NCBI GenBank assembly: GCA_021741155.1
Contig: JAIOYP010000006.1
Location: 62,001 to 126,000 of the forward strand
Source of the DNA: Flavobacteriales bacterium
GTDB taxonomy: Bacteria > Bacteroidota > Bacteroidia > UBA10329
Direction of reading: 5' to 3'
Length of the DNA stretch: 64,000 nucleotides
Shown here: piece by piece, positions 10,151-64,000 of the stretch
Layout: each line of letters starts with the position of its first letter
How positions within the stretch are numbered: the stretch's first letter is position 1
Notes under the pieces: model-generated
What the model saw: the letters and a program-made list of their open reading frames with translations, nothing else
Told to the model about the DNA's origin: nothing
Database searches by the model: none
Translations under genes and position numbers: made by a program

Positions 10151-10247
10151 GGGCGTGTCCGCGCAGCTGCGCAAGCGCGGTCGGGTCGTTCGCTATATCT
10201 TTTTTGTGAAAAACAAAAAAGGATGCCGCTTCCACCCCTCACGCGGC
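10151..10247 (+). repeat. structured intergenic repeat, copy 1
   Basis: This 97-bp element shares three conserved blocks with the copy at 17527-17655 (opposite strand): GGGCGTG at the start, GTCGGG followed by TCGCTATATCTTTT or its variant in the middle, and AAAAGGATGCCGCTTCC ... CCTCACGCGG at the end. Between the blocks sit two different self-complementary arms: here GCGC-AGCT-GCGC, and TTTTTTGT-GAAA-ACAAAAAA. The arms differ in sequence between copies yet both fold, which suggests selection on structure. It lies between the radical SAM gene and cystathionine beta-synthase. Confidence 0.75.
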
Positions 10248-10310
10248 ACTCCGATTCAGATTACAAGAAATCCGCGAAAACCCGCGCTTACCGCGTCATC
10301 CGCGTTCTAT

Positions 10311-17499: not shown

Positions 17500-17526
17500 G
17501 GTGTGCAGTGATGCTTGTAGGTTGCA

Positions 17527-17655
17527 CCGCGTGAGGGACGGAAGCGGCATCCTTTTCTTTCCCTCTGCAATGCTTTCGACTTCGCTCAGGCAAGAGCAGG
17601 GAAAGAAAAGATACAGCGGACGGCCCGACCCCGATTTTTCTTCGGGGGCACGCCC
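17527..17655 (-). repeat. structured intergenic repeat, copy 2
   Basis: Read on the minus strand, this 129-bp element has the same conserved blocks as 10151-10247: GGGCGTGCCC, then GTCGGGCCGTCCGCTGTATC, then AAAAGGATGCCGCTTCC and CCTCACGCGG. Its arms are different: CCCGA-AGAAAAA-TCGGG, and a long one built on CTTTTCTTTCCCT/AGGGAAAGAAAAG that encloses a TTCGACTTCGCTCAGG-type insert. It lies between the DUF3820 gene and the pyrophosphatase promoter. Confidence 0.78.
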
Positions 17656-20198: not shown

Positions 20199-20199
20199 G

Positions 20200-20236
20200 A
20201 AGCCCTGATTGCGAAAGCAATTGGGGCTTTTCTTTT
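20200..20236 (+). terminator. intrinsic terminator of the pyrophosphatase gene
   Basis: A 13-bp stem (two G-U pairs) AAGCCCTGATTGC/GCAATTGGGGCTT with a GAAA tetraloop is followed by TTTCTTTT, 43 bp after the stop. Confidence 0.85.
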
Positions 20237-20276: not shown

Positions 20277-20486
20277 GTAGCCATTTCTGATGTGGAAATA
20301 GTCATTTCTACGATGGAATTTGCCATTGCGAGGTGGTAACTGGTCTTAGATTAACAGGAAGTGGTCTTAGGGTAACCAGAAGATGCTATTTCGGAGGCGG
20401 AAGTAGTCGTGGCTTGGTAATGCGCGGCCTTAGCTTAGGCGGAAGCAGCCCGTTCGAAGGAGGAACGGCTATATAATAAAATGGAA
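20277..20486. repeat. degenerate 21-bp tandem array, array 1 (10 units)
   Basis: Ten consecutive 21-bp units, no gaps, each ending in GGAA or a close variant (GGTAA, AGAA). Two unit types alternate irregularly. Type A (units 4, 5, 8) begins CTGGTCTTAG, GTGGTCTTAG or GCGGCCTTAG. Type B (units 1, 2, 3, 6, 9) begins like GTAGCCATTTC or ATAGTCATTTC, with ATTTC or a variant in the middle. Unit 7 is intermediate and unit 10 is AT-rich. It ends 120 bp before a truncated member of the FN3-like gene family (20607) and parallels the array at 29407-29637 before the intact member. Confidence 0.8.
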
Positions 20487-20606
20487 GTAGAGTCTGTTCA
20501 ATAATTAAAACATACTTGGCAAATACATGCATATTTTCGGTATAAAAGCTGGCATGATTACCAATAATACAGACATTCTCACCACCACCCAGCAACAACT
20601 AAGAAC

Positions 20607-20744
20607 ATGCTGAAGTATCTTCAAACAGTTATAGACCAGCTTTCTGGATTGAAGACAGCAATTGCAACCAATACAGCGGCATGGGCCAGACAAACCGATA
20701 CACCTTTAACGGTGCAAGCCGAAATTGAGGGTCAGCGCATTTAG
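20607..20744 (+). pseudogene. truncated paralogue of the FN3-like protein gene at 29681
   Basis: An ATG at 20607 opens a 45-codon frame ending TAG at 20742-20744. Its product, MLKYLQTVIDQLSGLKTAIA then TNTAAWARQTDTP and VQAEI, aligns without gaps to the first ~41 residues of the intact 210-residue protein (MLKYLQKAKDKLTGLKAGIS, TNSAAWAGQPDTP, VQTEI) with about 60% identity. After codon 41 the similarity stops abruptly. Like the intact copy it is preceded by a 21-bp array. It is most likely a deletion remnant, though a functional short peptide cannot be excluded. Confidence 0.75.
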
Positions 20745-29317: not shown

Positions 29318-29406
29318 GGTGTTAAGATAGGTGGTTCTTTCACAATCCGCACGTGAGGACAGGCTTTTAGCAGGCTGAGGCGTTCGTCCATAATCAAACA
29401 AACATA

Positions 29407-29637
29407 GATATACCACTATTTATCATTGAAATAGTACTATTTCTGCCAATCTTTTTACTTTTTTTATCAAATATTTAGTTATTTCTAATTTATATTGCAC
29501 TATATCCATTAACATAATCTCTATTTTTATCAGTAATACTCATATAATTGGTGTCACTTTTAATTTATCTATCATAGATAATACTATTTCTGTGATAAAT
29601 ACTCATATTTTTACTAAGTATTTTACAGTTCTTCACG
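29407..29637. repeat. degenerate 21-bp tandem array, array 2 (11 units)
   Basis: Eleven consecutive 21-bp AT-rich units. Stacked at 21 bp, the columns align around a core close to TACTATTTCT followed by A/G and CA; for instance the second, ninth and tenth units contain TAGTACTATTTCTG, TAATACTATTTCTG and AATACTCATATTTT. In-frame stops occur in the register tested, so it is not coding. It ends 43 bp before the ATG of the intact FN3-like gene. The GAAATAGT...ATTTCT core also appears in units 1-2 of array 1. Confidence 0.75.
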
Positions 29638-29680
29638 TATTTCAAAGCCAAATCCAGTTAAACCGTCATAAAACCCCATC

Positions 29681-30313
29681 ATGTTAAAGTATCTTCAAAA
29701 AGCAAAAGACAAGCTTACCGGTCTGAAGGCAGGAATCTCTACCAACTCAGCTGCTTGGGCTGGGCAACCCGATACGCCTGCTTCGGTGCAAACAGAAATT
29801 GACACCTTAGACACGATGGGTGCCGAGATTGAACTACTGAAAAATCAATTGAAGCAAAAACTGGCTGCGGCACGCATCCTTGCCACTGCTAAAACGGATG
29901 CTGCGAAGATTATTGAGAAACGTGCCGTTGCCATTCATGCTACCAATGCGAACAAGCTGGTAGAATACAATATTCGCATATCGGGCGTAGCAGGTACTGC
30001 CCGCGAACTGCCTACGAAGGCCATCATCAAACGTGTGAAACATGATGCTGATGGTATCGGATTTAAACTATCCATAAAGGGTCAGGGAACTGCGGTTGAC
30101 TTCTGGGAAATTGAGCGCGGTATGATGGAGCTAACCACAGAGAACCGAGCGGCTACCGTACTACAGGTGCCCTACCCATTTTTGGCAAGCAGCAAAAAAT
30201 TGACGTATGTGGATGATGATGTGCTTGCAGGTGTGCGCTATTTCTACCGTGTGCGCGGAGTAAACGCCAAAGGTGGCGGAGCTTGGAGCGAGCCAGTGAG
30301 TGCGGTGCAGTAG
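29681..30313 (+). CDS. FN3-like protein of unknown function, associated with a 21-bp array
   Basis: 210 residues, no signal peptide. Residues 1-~115 are helical and Ala/Lys/Asp-rich (MLKYLQKAKDKLTGLKAGIS ... LKNQLKQKLAAARILATAKTDAAK). Residues ~118-210 form a fibronectin type III-like domain: FKLSIKGQGTAVDFWEIERG, AATVLQVPYPFLASSKKLTYVDDD, then RYFYRVRGVNAKGGGAWSEPVSAV, the classic FG-strand signature. It is probably cytoplasmic or exported by an unknown route. A truncated paralogue lies at 20607. Both are preceded by 21-bp arrays and the stop codon here is embedded in a perfect hairpin. Function is not known to me. Confidence 0.75.
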   Translation: MLKYLQKAKDKLTGLKAGISTNSAAWAGQPDTPASVQTEIDTLDTMGAEIELLKNQLKQKLAAARILATAKTDAAKIIEKRAVAIHATNANKLVEYNIRISGVAGTARELPTKAIIKRVKHDADGIGFKLSIKGQGTAVDFWEIERGMMELTTENRAATVLQVPYPFLASSKKLTYVDDDVLAGVRYFYRVRGVNAKGGGAWSEPVSAVQ

Positions 30314-59600: not shown

Positions 59601-62600
59601 GAGTTCACATCAATTGCAAGCGACTGGATTCCACAGTTATCAAACGAACCATCATCAATATCGCCAGCGGCAATAATTGCTGTTCCGTTTGAAGTCAATT
59701 GAACGGTGATGTCTGTACAAACCGCTGTTGGAGGAACGGTGTCTTGAGCTGTAACCGTAGCAATACAAGTGCTGATGTTTCCGTTCACATCCGTAACCGT
59801 TAGAATGATAGAATTGGCTCCAACGTTGTTGCAATTCAGCATCTGAGGAAGAACGGACATCGTGGCAATTCCGCAGTTATCAGAAGAACCATTGTCAACC
59901 AAAACTGGTGTGATGACAGCTTCGCCATTAGCATCTAACTGAACCGTCACAGAAGCACATGCAGCGGTTGGGTTCGTGTTGTCTTCCACAGTAATGGTTG
60001 CATCGCAGGTTGAGACGTTTCCATTAACATCGGTAACGGTTACCGTGATGATGTTGTCACCTACGGTTGAGCAATCCAACGTTGTGTTTAACTGACCACT
60101 GTCAACCGTTACTGTGGCAATTCCGCAGTTGTCGGCAGAACCACCGTCCAAATCGGCAGCAACAATGATGATGTCACCGTTTACATCAAGATCAACCGTG
60201 ATGTCGTTACAAACTGCGGTAGGAGAAATCGTATCAAGAACAGCAACAGTAGCCGTACAAGTTGATACGTTTCCTGTGTTGTCCGTAGCGGTCAAGGTCA
60301 CCGTATTTGCTCCAACATTTGAGCAATCGAATGCGTTTGGAGAAACGGACAACGAGGCCAATCCGCAACTTGCATTCGAACCTCCGTTCACATCGCCTGC
60401 CGCGATAGAAACGTTACCTGTAGCATTCAGATAAACAGTGATGTCTTGACAAGAAACTGTTGGAACTTCGTTGTTTTCAATTGTCAGCTGCGCATCACAA
60501 GTAGAAACGTTACCGTTCGCATCGGTAGCTGTAAGTGTTATGGTTTGAGTTCCAACATCGGCACATGTCCATTGCGTGTCAGCAGCATCTATTGAAAGCG
60601 TAACAGAACCACAGTTATCGGTCGTTCCACCGTCCAATTCAACGGCAGTAAGGACAACGGTTCCTGAAGGGTCCAATTCAATCGTAATGTCTTGACAAAT
60701 GATTGTTGGGCTAATCGTGTCTTCAACGGTTACAATCGCATCGCACGTAGAAACGTTTCCATTCACGTCAGTTACTGTGAGCGTAACCGTGTTTGCTCCT
60801 ACATTCGAGCAATCGAACGCCTGAGTTGTGTTTCCACCATCAATTTCGAGGGAGGCGATTCCACAGTTATCGAAAGAACCGTTGTCAATATCTGCAGAAG
60901 TGATTGTCAAATCTCCGTTTGCGTCTAACAGAACCGTGATGTTCTGACAAACTGCGTTTGGATCAACGTTGTCTTCAACAGTTACCGTTGCATCGCAAGT
61001 AGAAACGTTTCCATTTACGTCTGTAACCGTCAACGTAACCGTGTTTGTCCCTACTTGAGAACAATCGAAATCTTGAGTGGTATTTCCGTTGTCGATTTCA
61101 AGAGAAGCGATTCCGCAATTGTCGTTGCTTCCACCATTGATGTCAGCAGATGTGATAGTCAATTCGCCATTCGCATCAAGCTGTACTGTGATGTTTTGGC
61201 AAACTGCTGTCGGAGAAATCGTGTCTTCTACTGTTACAATCGCATCACAAGTTGAAGCGTTTCCGTTCACATCCGTTACCGTCAGTGTAACCGTGTTAGT
61301 TCCTACAGTTGAGCAATCGAAAGCTTGATTGGCATTTCCACCATCAATTGTGAGGGAAGCGATTCCGCAAGCATCTGTAGATCCGTTATCAATATCAGCT
61401 GACATGATGGTCAAATCGCCATTCGCATCCAACTGAACGGTGATGTTTTGGCAAACTGCCGTTGGGTCGATATTGTCTTCGACAGTAACCGTTGCATCGC
61501 ACGTAGAAACGTTTCCGTTCACATCTGTTACCGTAAGCGTAACGGTGTTCGCTCCAACGTTGGAGCATTCGAAATCTTGAGTGGTATTTCCGCCATCAAT
61601 CTCAAGCGAAGCAACTCCGCAATTATCAGCAGAACCGCCATCAATATCAGCTGATGCTATGGTCAATTCGCCATTCGCATCAAGCTGAACTGTGATGTTC
61701 TGGCAAACCGCAGTTGGAGAGATTGTGTCCAGAACAGTAACAATCGCGTCACAAGTTGAAGTGTTTCCGCTGTTGTCAATTGCTGTGAGCGTGACCGTGT
61801 TCGGGCCAACATTTGAGCAATCGAAAGCATCCTGAGAAACGGTCAATGAAGCTAATCCGCAACTTGCATTTGAACCTCCGTTCACGTCATCAGCGATAAT
61901 TGAAATGTTGCCAGTCGCATCCAAATAAACGGTGATGTCTTGGCAGAATACGTTTGGCGCAACGTTGTTTTCAATCGTAACCGTTGCATCACACGTTGAA
62001 ACGTTGCCGTTCACATCCGTTATAGTTAAGGTGATTGTATTCGTGCCTTCATCAGCACAATCGAAATCGAATGTTGTGTTGCCGCCATCAACAGTATAAG
62101 AAGCAATTCCGCAATTATCAGTGCTTCCACCGTCAATATCAATTGAATTAATGGTTGCGTTTCCGTTGGCATCCAGCTGAACTGTGATGTTTTGACAAAC
62201 GGCTGTTGGATCAACGTTATCTTCAACCGTTACGGTCGCATCACAGGTAGAAACGTTTCCGTTCACATCTGTTACCGTTAGCGTAACTGTGTTTGCGCCA
62301 ACATTCGAGCAATCAAATGCTTGAGTCGTATTTCCACCATCTATCTCCAGCGAAGCGATTCCGCAATTATCAGAAGAACCTCCATCGATATCAGCTGAAG
62401 CAATGGTCAAATCTCCATTGGCATCCAACTGAACTGTGATATTCTGGCAAACTGCCGTTGGGTCGATATTGTCTTCAACAGTTACCGTTGCATCGCAGGT
62501 TGAAACGTTTCCGTTCACGTCAGTTACAGTCAATGTAACCGTGTTTGCTCCAACATTTGAGCAATCGAACTCTTGAGTGGTATTTCCGCCATCAATTTCC

Positions 62601-64000
62601 AAAGAAGCGATACCGCAGTTGTCCGTTGAACCTCCATCAATGTCGGCTGAGGTGATGGTCAAATCTCCGTTTGCATCCAACTGAACCGTAATGTTTTGGC
62701 AAACTGCCGTTGGGTCAACGTTGTCCTCAACTGTTACTGTTGCATCGCAGGTTGAAACGTTTCCGCTCACATCTGTTACTGTCAGCGTAACCGTGTTCGC
62801 ACCAACATTTGAGCAATCAAAATCTTGGGTAGCGTTTCCGCCATCAATGGTGAGCGAAGCAATTCCGCAAGCATCAGTAGAACCACCATCGATATCAGCA
62901 GAAGTAATAGTCAAATCGCCATTGGCGTCTAATTGAACCGTGATGTTTTGACAAACTGCCGTTGGGTTAATGTTGTCTTCAACTGTTACCGTTGCATCGC
63001 AGGTTGAAACGTTTCCGTTCACGTCCGTTACAGTCAATGTGACCGTGTTTGCTCCAACATTTGAGCAATCGAAAGCTTGATTCGTGTTTCCACCATCAAT
63101 GGTGAGTGAAGCGATTCCGCAATTATCAGAAGAACCTCCATCGATATTAGCAGAAGTGATGGTCAGATCTCCGTTCGCATCCAACTGAACGGTGATGTTT
63201 TGGCAAACGGCAGTTGGGTCGATATTATCCTGAACTGTTACCGTAGCCGTACAATTGTCCGTGTTTCCGTTAACATCAGTAACGGTCAGCGTGACAGTGT
63301 TCGCTCCAACATTTGAGCAATCGAAAGCGTCTGTAGATACCGCAAGCGAAGCAATTGCGCAATTATCAGTGCTGTTATTATTAATCTGAGAAGCAACAAT
63401 TGAAGCGTCTCCGTTTGCATCCAACTGAACCGTTACTCCTTGGCAAAGAGCGTTCGGGTCAACGTTGTCCTCAACCGTAACATTAGAAGTACAAGTTGAG
63501 GTGTTTCCGTTGTCATCAGCCACAGTAAGTGTAACGGTATTAGCACCAACTACCGAGCAGTTAAATGTGCTTACATCCACCACTAAAGAAGTGATTCCAC
63601 AAGCATCATTCGAACCGTTGTTTACTTGAGATGGAACGATGGAGGCGTTTCCAGAAGCATCAACCTGCACAACGATATCTTGACAGATGGCATTCGGGCT
63701 GATGGTGTCCAAAACGGTTACGGTTGAAGCACAAGAAGCCACATTTCCGTTCACATCGGTTACCGTAAGGGTTACAGGATTCGGACCAACTCCAGAACAG
63801 GTAAATGAGTTTGGAGTAACAATCATGTTGGCGATTCCGCAGTTGTCGGAAGAACCATTATCCACATCAGCAGGAACGATTCCCACGTTTCCAGTCGCAT
63901 CCAAATAAATGGTGATGTTCTGGCATAAAGCGATTGGCGCTTCGTTGTCTTCCACCGTTACATCAGCAGTACACGAAGAGCTGTTTCCGTTCTCGTCCGT
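53690..64000 (-). CDS. giant repeat adhesin: HYR-like repeats, SprB repeats, PKD, gliding-type C-terminal domain (N-terminus outside window)
   Basis: The frame is open from the right edge (64000) to the stop at 53690, more than 3430 residues; the start is outside the window. From the edge to about 57590 lie 26 complete HYR-like repeats of ~80-84 residues, each with the pattern DN-x-x-PTAVCQNITVQLDA ... SDNCGIASL ... FDCSNVG ... TCDATVTVE and four conserved Cys. Next is one HYR domain (~57350-57585), ten SprB-type repeats (~54980-57340; consensus CNGAADGSI...GGTAPYSYSWSNG...AGTYTVTVTDANGC), an Ig-like module, three PKD domains and a C-terminal domain LYVPNAMG ... DKWGNLLW ... GWDG ... GTVMVLY of the gliding-motility/T9SS type B class. 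A cell-surface adhesin or gliding component is likely. Confidence 0.88.
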   Translation of the reverse strand, partial: TDENGNSSSCTADVTVEDNEAPIALCQNITIYLDATGNVGIVPADVDNGSSDNCGIANMIVTPNSFTCSGVGPNPVTLTVTDVNGNVASCASTVTVLDTISPNAICQDIVVQVDASGNASIVPSQVNNGSNDACGITSLVVDVSTFNCSVVGANTVTLTVADDNGNTSTCTSNVTVEDNVDPNALCQGVTVQLDANGDASIVASQINNNSTDNCAIASLAVSTDAFDCSNVGANTVTLTVTDVNGNTDNCTATVTVQDNIDPTAVCQNITVQLDANGDLTITSANIDGGSSDNCGIASLTIDGGNTNQAFDCSNVGANTVTLTVTDVNGNVSTCDATVTVEDNINPTAVCQNITVQLDANGDLTITSADIDGGSTDACGIASLTIDGGNATQDFDCSNVGANTVTLTVTDVSGNVSTCDATVTVEDNVDPTAVCQNITVQLDANGDLTITSADIDGGSTDNCGIASLEIDGGNTTQEFDCSNVGANTVTLTVTDVNGNVSTCDATVTVEDNIDPTAVCQNITVQLDANGDLTIASADIDGGSSDNCGIASLEIDGGNTTQAFDCSNVGANTVTLTVTDVNGNVSTCDATVTVEDNVDPTAVCQNITVQLDANGNATINSIDIDGGSTDNCGIASYTVDGGNTTFDFDCADEGTNTITLTITDVNGNVSTCDATVTIENNVAPNVFCQDITVYLDATGNISIIADDVNGGSNASCGLASLTVSQDAFDCSNVGPNTVTLTAIDNSGNTSTCDAIVTVLDTISPTAVCQNITVQLDANGELTIASADIDGGSADNCGVASLEIDGGNTTQDFECSNVGANTVTLTVTDVNGNVSTCDATVTVEDNIDPTAVCQNITVQLDANGDLTIMSADIDNGSTDACGIASLTIDGGNANQAFDCSTVGTNTVTLTVTDVNGNASTCDAIVTVEDTISPTAVCQNITVQLDANGELTITSADINGGSNDNCGIASLEIDNGNTTQDFDCSQVGTNTVTLTVTDVNGNVSTCDATVTVEDNVDPNAVCQNITVLLDANGDLTITSADIDNGSFDNCGIASLEIDGGNTTQAFDCSNVGANTVTLTVTDVNGNVSTCDAIVTVEDTISPTIICQDITIELDPSGTVVLTAVELDGGTTDNCGSVTLSIDAADTQWTCADVGTQTITLTATDANGNVSTCDAQLTIENNEVPTVSCQDITVYLNATGNVSIAAGDVNGGSNASCGLASLSVSPNAFDCSNVGANTVTLTATDNTGNVSTCTATVAVLDTISPTAVCNDITVDLDVNGDIIIVAADLDGGSADNCGIATVTVDSGQLNTTLDCSTVGDNIITVTVTDVNGNVSTCDATITVEDNTNPTAACASVTVQLDANGEAVITPVLVDNGSSDNCGIATMSVLPQMLNCNNVGANSIILTVTDVNGNISTCIATVTAQDTVPPTAVCTDITVQLTSNGTAIIAAGDIDDGSFDNCGIQSLAIDVNSFDCSEIGGNTVELTVTDVNGNTSTCTANANVVDEVDPNVICQNLSVYLEANGQVTITADDIDNGSTDACGIDTMTLSVYTFDCTDIGVNPVTLTVTDNYGNFDICQAVVRVFDTIPPVTVCQDITIQLDATGTASIVAADVDGGSTDNCGIDAISVDQTIFDCSQVGDNTVVLTVIDVNGNESTCEAIVTVEDNVNPNANCQDITIQLDAAGNASISASDINAGSDANCGIDTVFVSQMNFDCSNVGNNIVTLTVVDVNGNQSTCTSSVEVLDTISPTAICQDLITQLNAAGEASITVLQVNNGSFDNCGILSLVLDDRTFDCSDAGVNQVVLTVTDINGNVSTCTSQVTVQDNVSPHATCTPVVVQMDANGVATITADEVDLNSSDNCAIDTMLLSQYTFDCSEIGTNSVTLTVIDASGNSSTCDAVIIVEENVPPVALCQNMTVYLDVLGDATILASDVDAGSTDNCAIDTMYVTPNDFSCSGVGVNPVVLTVIDVNGNVSSCNASVTVVDTISPVAICQDIVVQVNADGETTIDAEEVDNGSSDACGITGFVVDLSNFDCSNVGANTVVLTVEDNNGNTSTCTATVTIEDNINPIANCTDLTVILDGNGMVSILANELNDNSTDNCAIDTIFASQIDFSCADLGSNIITVTVVDVNGNSANCSSELTVLDTISPVIIACPMDTVIVPDSSDCSPQVFWTEPTAADNCTPTLTSNFVPGDNFPVGTTTVTYTATDESNNSVSCSFDVTIEPSPVLVEITSPEGPCGYNLSCGAVPNGEATANPSGGCLPYTYVWTNGQTTQTATGLGAGLHGVTVTDANGTSAVQTIILTEPDPLTTDSITSPEFAGGANISCIGEFDGAISINVLGGEECVTYNYAWTGPNGFTSTTEDISGLEAGTYIVVVSDASGCSYTDSITLTEPAPFDVDSLVSDYNGVNISCGGAADGSIGLTISGGAAPYSVSWSNGDTTEDIDSLMAGIYTYTVTDANGCEISGSITLTEPDGLSSFITTSDYNGFQISCNGLADGSIDLTVNEGTQPYSYSWNNGETTEDLANLEAGIYFVNITDANGCTLIDSVTLTQPDSLIVFSVDTNLVSCNGAMDGSFFVQANGGIPTYTFSWSDGQMGPTAEEIGLGFYTVTVLDQNGCQDSLQLEMTEPDVLDASLVQIYDVICFGESNGIIDVNVIGGTTPYSYNWSNNDTLQDLNGVAAGTYLLEVTDANGCTDTLSATISEPTELIMSVDTVINSTCSGAMNGEITVEATGGTAPYTYTWPNLNISGPTASGLNAGVYEVHVVDANNCSWSMNVAVGQPTSIQVQVQVQSSVSCNGLADGSAVVTVSGGTTPYTYLWSNSDTDSLATGFGAGVHTVTVTDAGGCDTTLTFLIDEPALLTIALDTLFNVTCNGAANGQIEVDVTGGTTPYTATWSNGDAGFAAYNLAAGTYTVYVTDGHGCTDSLSATFTEPEAISVHSISTVNVLCKGGNNGEATIIAEGGTAPLTYNWPSIGQTGNTATTLEAGTYTFVVTDASGCTYSDIVQITQPDAIVVSTTSDTAVCPGSGVTISASAIGGAGNFSYTWNNGLGLGASHFVSPTVATTYTVLVVDENGCAASLDSVTVNMASTPVAAFSSSASAPCVLPSDIQFTNMSSGATGYQWILGNGTQSSDVNPTATYANAGTYTVTLIAISGAGCADTTTGTVIIDNIPTAAFTLNNAQGCAPLVVNFGNNSTTGLDYLWDFGDGTTSTISHPIHVYDIPGEYEVTLIVSSLGGCSDTLSLGAAVSAYPSPIADFTANNTSFPDPGNEYEFVNNSVDADLYNWDFGNDDQSDEFQPTYEFPSYGGYFVTLTAINEFGCADTAVHYISVELQTTLYVPNAMGIGEVGEASIFLPKGTGIADYHLWIFDKWGNLLWESTALNNGSPAEGWDGVYKGAVVPMGSYVWKINATFVDGEIWDGQDFTNGKHGNSGTVMVLY
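57590..64000 (-). repeat. tandem HYR-like coding repeat array (~252-bp units)
   Basis: The repeats are strongly conserved at DNA level in the interval ~61.4-63.2 kb. For example CATCGCAGGTTGAAACGTTT recurs at 62491, 62743 and 62995, exactly 252 bp apart, with CATCACAGG at 62239 in the same register. Repeats nearer the SprB region are more divergent. Confidence 0.85.

Follow-up and report, generated by a model that had tools for sequence, protein, structure and literature searches.

Gapless tandem arrays with a 20–22 bp unit accompany a helical-hairpin/FN3 gene family in Bacteroidota

Two arrays of short tandem repeats, each in front of a copy of the same small gene, raise the question of whether array and gene belong together and what such an array might do. 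They lie in a stretch of 64,000 nucleotides from a Flavobacteriales bacterium, which is called the window below. For the first array, the initial annotation had reported ten gapless 21 bp units of two intermixed types, and our periodicity scan recovered both the ten units (20277..20486, + strand; array 1) and the two types. Its description of the unit ends as GGAA or a variant was right for the seven units ending in GGAA and the two with a one-base variant (GTAA, AGAA), but not for the tenth, which ends in ATGC. The second array claimed ahead of the intact paralogue was likewise present, as an AT-rich stretch with a 21 bp period at ~29401..29612 (+), 5' of the intact gene (array 2), and its periodicity was detectable up to ~29637. 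When lag-21 autocorrelation was compared with shuffled sequence, as had been proposed, both arrays exceeded all 1000 shuffles. Array 1 gave 94 lag-21 matches versus 48.9 ± 5.8 after dinucleotide shuffling (z 7.7, 0/1000 reaching 94), and array 2, when scored over 29400–29640, gave a z of 4.7 (0/1000 shuffles as high), with lag 63 (3 × 21) being stronger than lag 21. A scan of the window (lags 5–60, 200-base windows) ranked the two arrays as its top two periodic signals, each at lag 21. Tandem Repeats Finder reported two fragments of array 1 and none of array 2; it misses most of both because identity between their units is only about one half. The two arrays have no common unit, and their pair falls outside the best 30 array pairs listed (z at least 2.2). 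Array 1 begins ~46 bases downstream of an intrinsic-terminator-like hairpin (20199..20230, +; 14 pairs and a T tail) that follows the H+-pyrophosphatase gene; this hairpin is a consensus match only, with 0.7 such hairpins expected in shuffles.

The truncated FN3-like copy annotated after array 1 was verified at 20607..20744 (+), where codons 1–41 of the intact gene are matched at 63% identity and a stop follows at 20744. The intact gene (29681..30313, +) encodes 210 aa and was modelled with AlphaFold and compared with Foldseek. A third copy of the window-type gene was not found in the window's genome (3.76 Mb, 69 contigs). The AlphaFold model (mean pLDDT 85, pTM 0.45) predicts helices at residues 3–21, 33–85, and 90–96, followed by a C-terminal beta domain, which Foldseek assigns to FN3 (best E 2.2e-05, probability 1.00). 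The Pfam fn3 model scored under its cut-off in the window protein and was found in 5/7 members of the alignment of a more distant type, named after locus L005 (alignment A5; best E 7.2e-08). Homology between the window and L005 types extends along almost the whole protein (hhalign probability 98.6%, E 1e-15).

We scored the flanks of related genes for tandem similarity at each lag. Window-type homologues were patchy, occurring in 4/59 genomes and, across the phylum, in 6/395 genomes, the window's own being included both times; two of the six (G107 and G216) match only through the FN3 stretch of a 1348-aa frame. A named genome collection yielded 7 loci, 4 of which were contigs already found, and L009, L010, L012, and L013 were dropped as duplicates of the contigs of L003, L004, L006, and L007. 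A C-terminal fragment (L104) and the FN3 part of longer frames (L018, L019, L137), all lacking a 21 bp array, were left uncounted. The resulting 27 first-round loci comprised the window type, the distant L005 type, the cupin-type P0001, and an additional protein, P0002. In 27/27 loci, lag 21 outscored all others between 10 and 40, and the tandem score reached at least 20 in 23/27, or in 19/23 after removal of L072 and L080, which had been found through their arrays, and of the two window loci, which are the finding itself. The same score was reached by 5 of 664 control ORFs (at least 150 aa, from 57 background stretches), of which two are flanks of the P0001 array itself, two have in common the orphan array at L037, and the fifth, at L040, owes its score to a coding repeat. 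Weak signals came from L004 (period 43, that is, 2 × 21.5), L005, L099, and L100, and L099 did not score above its own shuffle maximum (8.6). At L103, the best array segment lies 440 bp away from the gene. Neighbouring genes differ between loci. Relatives of P0002, which was found via its array, were absent from the 11 genomes searched. The neighbouring hydroxylase gene has relatives in 8/8 congeners, at 11 loci of which just four reach 74–84% identity, and no array was seen beside any of these 11. Because the pyrophosphatase gene never adjoins the hydroxylase gene in the congeners, they offer no clean empty site.

A second sample was drawn by searching 394 genomes of one bacterial family with the L005-type profile (alignment A5). 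The gene was detected in 51 of them, many with several copies and some with at least 7. The sample of 67 loci consisted of 27 new loci and 40 of more than 100 further rows that had no locus, in listing order, seven rows whose match started late in the profile being skipped; at least 150 bp of 5' flank was present in 66/67, L190 having no 5' flank. A 5' tandem array (score at least 18) accompanied the gene in 57 of the 66 loci, and its unit measured 20–22 bp in 57/57 under a rule by which 15 of the 60 tested lags count as in range. Forty-five units were 21.0 bp long, five were 20, three were 22, and one each was 20.5, 20.67, 21.33, and 21.5. Periods of 41, 43, 62, and 64 bp can be read as mixtures of 20, 21, and 22 bp units with a mean of about two helical turns. 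A range of 20–22 bp favours spacing by two helical turns over a constraint from codons or heptads. Under the same rule, the 5' flanks of control ORFs gave 7/653 positives, six of which are three arrays or repeats counted twice. The 3' flanks of all 67 loci scored at least 18 in four cases, two of them in the 20–22 class. The arrays contain ~6 to 17 units and stand 9–756 bp from the gene start (median 218, 57 loci). The proposed search of homologues for upstream 21 bp periodicity was thus positive at most loci, but nine of the 66 stayed under the threshold, with best lags of 60, 41, 22, 41, 67, 10, 63, 63, and 43. Array and gene are linked, and they recur together across loci, as the suggestion of one duplicated unit would have it; a simple duplication of the pair is not supported, as paralogues can carry unrelated units.

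Which part of the protein does the array follow? Eight ORFs with the FN3 domain and without the helical part (L134, L136, L139–L144; frames of 93–130 residues, four each from two genomes of one genus) had no clear array, lag 63 peaking weakly in one of them (L139, z 5.0). An array does accompany L135, another L005-type protein of full length, and we therefore assign the link to the helical part. The AlphaFold model of P0001 (pLDDT 87, pTM 0.57) has the helix order of the window type twice and then a separate domain, for which the weak matches include many cupins (best E 2.2e-3). Sequence homology between the FN3 groups and the cupin group was not significant (hhalign E 0.017 and 0.28) and the proposal was dropped; the groups agree only in predicted helix order. 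In the P0001 group, the array directly follows the stop codon in 4/4 loci with that side seen (L072, the discovery locus of the group, L073, L075, and L076), L077–L079 ending inside the gene with the 3' side outside the contig. The array of a distant P0001 relative (L074) is 5', and that of L005 lies on the 3' side. In two congeneric genomes, contigs (L075, L077, L078, L079) start or break off within a P0001-type gene, whose true copy number is therefore probably higher than the assemblies suggest.

The unit sequence changes between paralogues. L195 and L197, from one genome, are 81% identical in the gene and 84% in the 148 bp spacer between array and gene, and their units are unrelated (z 0.0). 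Related units are retained in L160/L193 (z 8.2), and of the nine pairs whose genes reach 70% identity or more, two had arrays above z 3. Genome G307 has three copies with three different units. When 276 array pairs were compared in either orientation, 22 had a unit in common at more than z 3, several of these centring on CTATTTC/GAAATAG, and the number of units varies between arrays. The earlier idea of a varying recombination substrate is therefore borne out for the unit sequence, which turns over, but not for the spacing, which stays.

The phased binding platform, one of the functions that had been suggested, is the best-favoured reading, and the evidence for it lies in the 20–22 bp range, the absence of phase shifts inside arrays, and the frequent dyads. 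Only six phase shifts were counted in 25 arrays, all within ~25 bases of an array edge, against 1735 substitutions from the consensus (28%); the array bounds were chosen from the lag signal, so this count is biased downward, and one of the 25 arrays (L004) does not fit the 21 bp model. Mean match excess was equally high for lags 63 and 21 (0.30 and 0.31, 24 arrays). The unit was dyad-symmetric at p ≤ 0.05 versus column shuffles in 15/25 arrays (14/24 without L004, period 43), including array 2 (p < 0.002); the other 10 showed no significant dyad, array 1 (p 0.62) among them.

We hold it to be an even call that the array is a noncoding DNA platform in cis, made of helically phased binding sites, for a family with an N-terminal helical hairpin. 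It would offer a row of ~6 to 17 sites, often dyad-symmetric and two helical turns (20–22 bp) apart, a spacing that would place all bound molecules on one face of the DNA. A locus-specific protein might bind cooperatively along the array, most likely the product of the adjacent gene or a complex containing it. That most loci have private units, and that the link is to one part of the protein, speaks for the gene's own product; against it stand the mostly acidic isoelectric points (below 7 in 17/27 proteins or fragments, the window's own protein being at 9.6) and family scans that gave no convincing DNA-binding domain, the sole match being a weak bZIP_2 in 1/7 members (E 0.0044). Against the platform itself stand the variable distance from array to gene start, the 3' arrays of the cupin group and L005, and the arrays without a gene. 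With 53–54 residues in both models, the long helix would measure ~80 angstroms, or nearly one unit length, a coincidence whose meaning is purely speculative.

By analogy, the array could serve the binder in autoregulation or in nucleating a filament, as iterons serve Rep and parC serves ParR. The iteron arrays of plasmid origins are tandem sites spaced by ~two turns next to the gene for a small Rep protein, and they are replicon-specific. The arrays described here are similar in having phased tandem sites with a locus-specific sequence beside a small-protein gene. They differ from iterons in lying on chromosome-sized contigs, in several copies per genome, with ~6–17 units, and the L005, P0001, and L102 types had no match in 72,556 plasmid records; family scans of the array-linked proteins returned no Rep-like family. 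parC-type centromere arrays are rows of short repeats that are bound by ParR and nucleate a protein filament. The likeness is again a row of short repeats beside a small gene, whereas here the family scans gave no ribbon-helix-helix match and the array can be 5' or 3'. The layout is not that of a CRISPR either, in which unique spacers separate the repeats; our units are gapless and 20–22 bp long. As the initial annotation had supposed, no named system fits, and we found no description of an association between a helix-FN3 gene and a 20–22 bp array in the open-access papers searched. A more tentative and on balance doubtful extension is that Bacteroidota possess a recurrent, often multi-copy new class of cis platform with cognate protein, in which each gene copy has a private array, the spacing is selected, and the sites turn over, yielding orthogonal paralogues.

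The strongest rival, which we nevertheless consider unlikely, is a neutral, mutation-driven minisatellite that arose once beside the gene, kept its period through the copying of units, and has no function. The locus-specific units would fit, as they can change with the flanks kept (L195/L197), and so would the variable unit number and the existence of arrays without the gene. Intergenic 21 or 42 bp arrays with no recognised family member were seen at L037:9921-10610, L041:16763-17098, L029:14626-14960, L060:7442-7640, L063:148-460, and L023:12456-12680, in background stretches of G307 and of G000 (400 kb from each) and beside loci already known. In 340 kb from genomes without a match, there was one candidate (L087:17647-17815), and the signal at L083:9677 peaks at lag 21 and about equally at 12, 42, and 57. 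Such arrays may be remnants, parts of further families, or a sign of wider array use. The minisatellite reading is opposed by the confinement of all 57 second-sample units to 20–22 bp, with composite periods that average about two turns, by phase shifts restricted to array edges despite heavy substitution (subject to the bias given above), and by a linkage that tracks the helical part rather than FN3 (judged by the eight FN3-only ORFs of two congeneric genomes). BrickBuilt of Porphyromonas gingivalis, in the passages cited, is a 23-nt minisatellite within a MITE, with one repeating sequence at 19 places (PMC4596501). It resembles our arrays in being a gapless, intergenic minisatellite of short units in the same phylum; BrickBuilt has MITE ends and a single sequence, whereas here the units differ by locus and the gene is constant. 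Intergenic tandem repeats of lake Planctomycetota are tied to deletions, and the cited passages, unlike the present case, name no gene family or period (PMC9426551).

An RNA transcribed from the repeats and bound or processed by the neighbouring protein, on the model of type III toxin–antitoxin systems, is in our judgement quite improbable. In ToxIN, as described in the passages cited, ToxI is an RNA of ~3–6 repeats with a terminator before the toxin, and a tandem array standing immediately 5' of a small gene, with a cluster-specific sequence, is a shared feature (PMC8860590). Our arrays have more and shorter units and lack a general RNA signature, and the two arrays of the window are not separated from their genes by a terminator-like site. 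The sense strand folds at z < -2 versus shuffles in 13/25 arrays (mean z -3.1), but the antisense strand does so alike (14/25, mean -2.5), and there is no consistent strand preference. Within-unit covariation over 64 arrays averaged z 0.16, with eight above 2 and three below -2, and stems had no G-U excess (178 G-T versus 202 A-C mismatches). Array 1 had the highest covariation of the 64 (z 3.62), yet its unit is hardly palindromic (0.35); covariation noticed by eye in L195 was not upheld (z 1.68). The structured RNA put forward by the initial annotation is accordingly weakened overall, array 1 itself deviating from the trend. The cupin-group arrays lie 3' of the gene, and PADLOC gave no defence-family match for the array-linked protein. 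The predicted fold is a helical hairpin plus FN3, and no ToxN is among the 50 listed of 1574 Foldseek matches.

Less probable still is that the array serves as a site at which a mobile gene cassette inserts or is exchanged. The patchy distribution (4/59 and 6/395 genomes) and the differing neighbours would agree with it, but the unit sequence is mostly not common between loci, and no relatives were met in mobile elements: none of the window type in the viral contigs searched, none of the L102 type in the phages searched, and none in the plasmid records mentioned above. The FN3 part weakly matches tail proteins in PHROG (best E 4.2e-4), and an origin from phages or plasmids was rejected. The array is non-coding, and a heptapeptide-repeat product (21 bp being seven codons) is close to refuted even though arrays such as L007 and L073 have several open frames, since 0/24 arrays showed a codon rhythm in unit variability at p < 0.05, both window arrays contain stops in 6/6 frames, and 20 and 22 bp units are not codon multiples.

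Two other candidates for the function or content of the arrays were set aside. DNA curvature through phased A-tracts was rejected, as the GC-rich arrays L007 and L073 have none by eye, and a conserved small ORF between array and gene was shared only by four pairs of close paralogues. The Bacteroidota-type promoter motif TAnnTTTG, as a sign of a promoter between array and gene, occurs within 450 bp upstream of only 3/20 genes. Near the distal end of two arrays, there are small ORFs that look HTH-like by eye (L006:2523-2810, -; L004:2795-3049, +).

The near-constant DNA partner gives an unnamed protein family a first handle on its function. Dozens of natural array–protein pairs are now at hand from which to learn how a DNA site changes fully while its spacing stays, and 20–22 bp intergenic minisatellites in these bacteria are not to be discarded as noise.

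A dispersed repeat occurs at 13 places in G000 (L145–L157), with the end AGTCTGTTCAATAA at no more than one mismatch (13 matches versus 1 in a reversed control), and ACTGTGTC comes after this end in several copies. The end looks like that of a MITE. The repeat adjoins array 1 and the 42 bp array of L060, and a 14-base flank motif common to two arrays of the genome proved to be a dispersed repeat end. The window also contains two matches to Flavo-1 RNA (RF01705) above the gathering score, at 17515-17634 (+) and 10175-10252 (-), and a tandem repeat of 252 bp in ~10 copies at 60718-63328, within a reading frame of 3421 aa.
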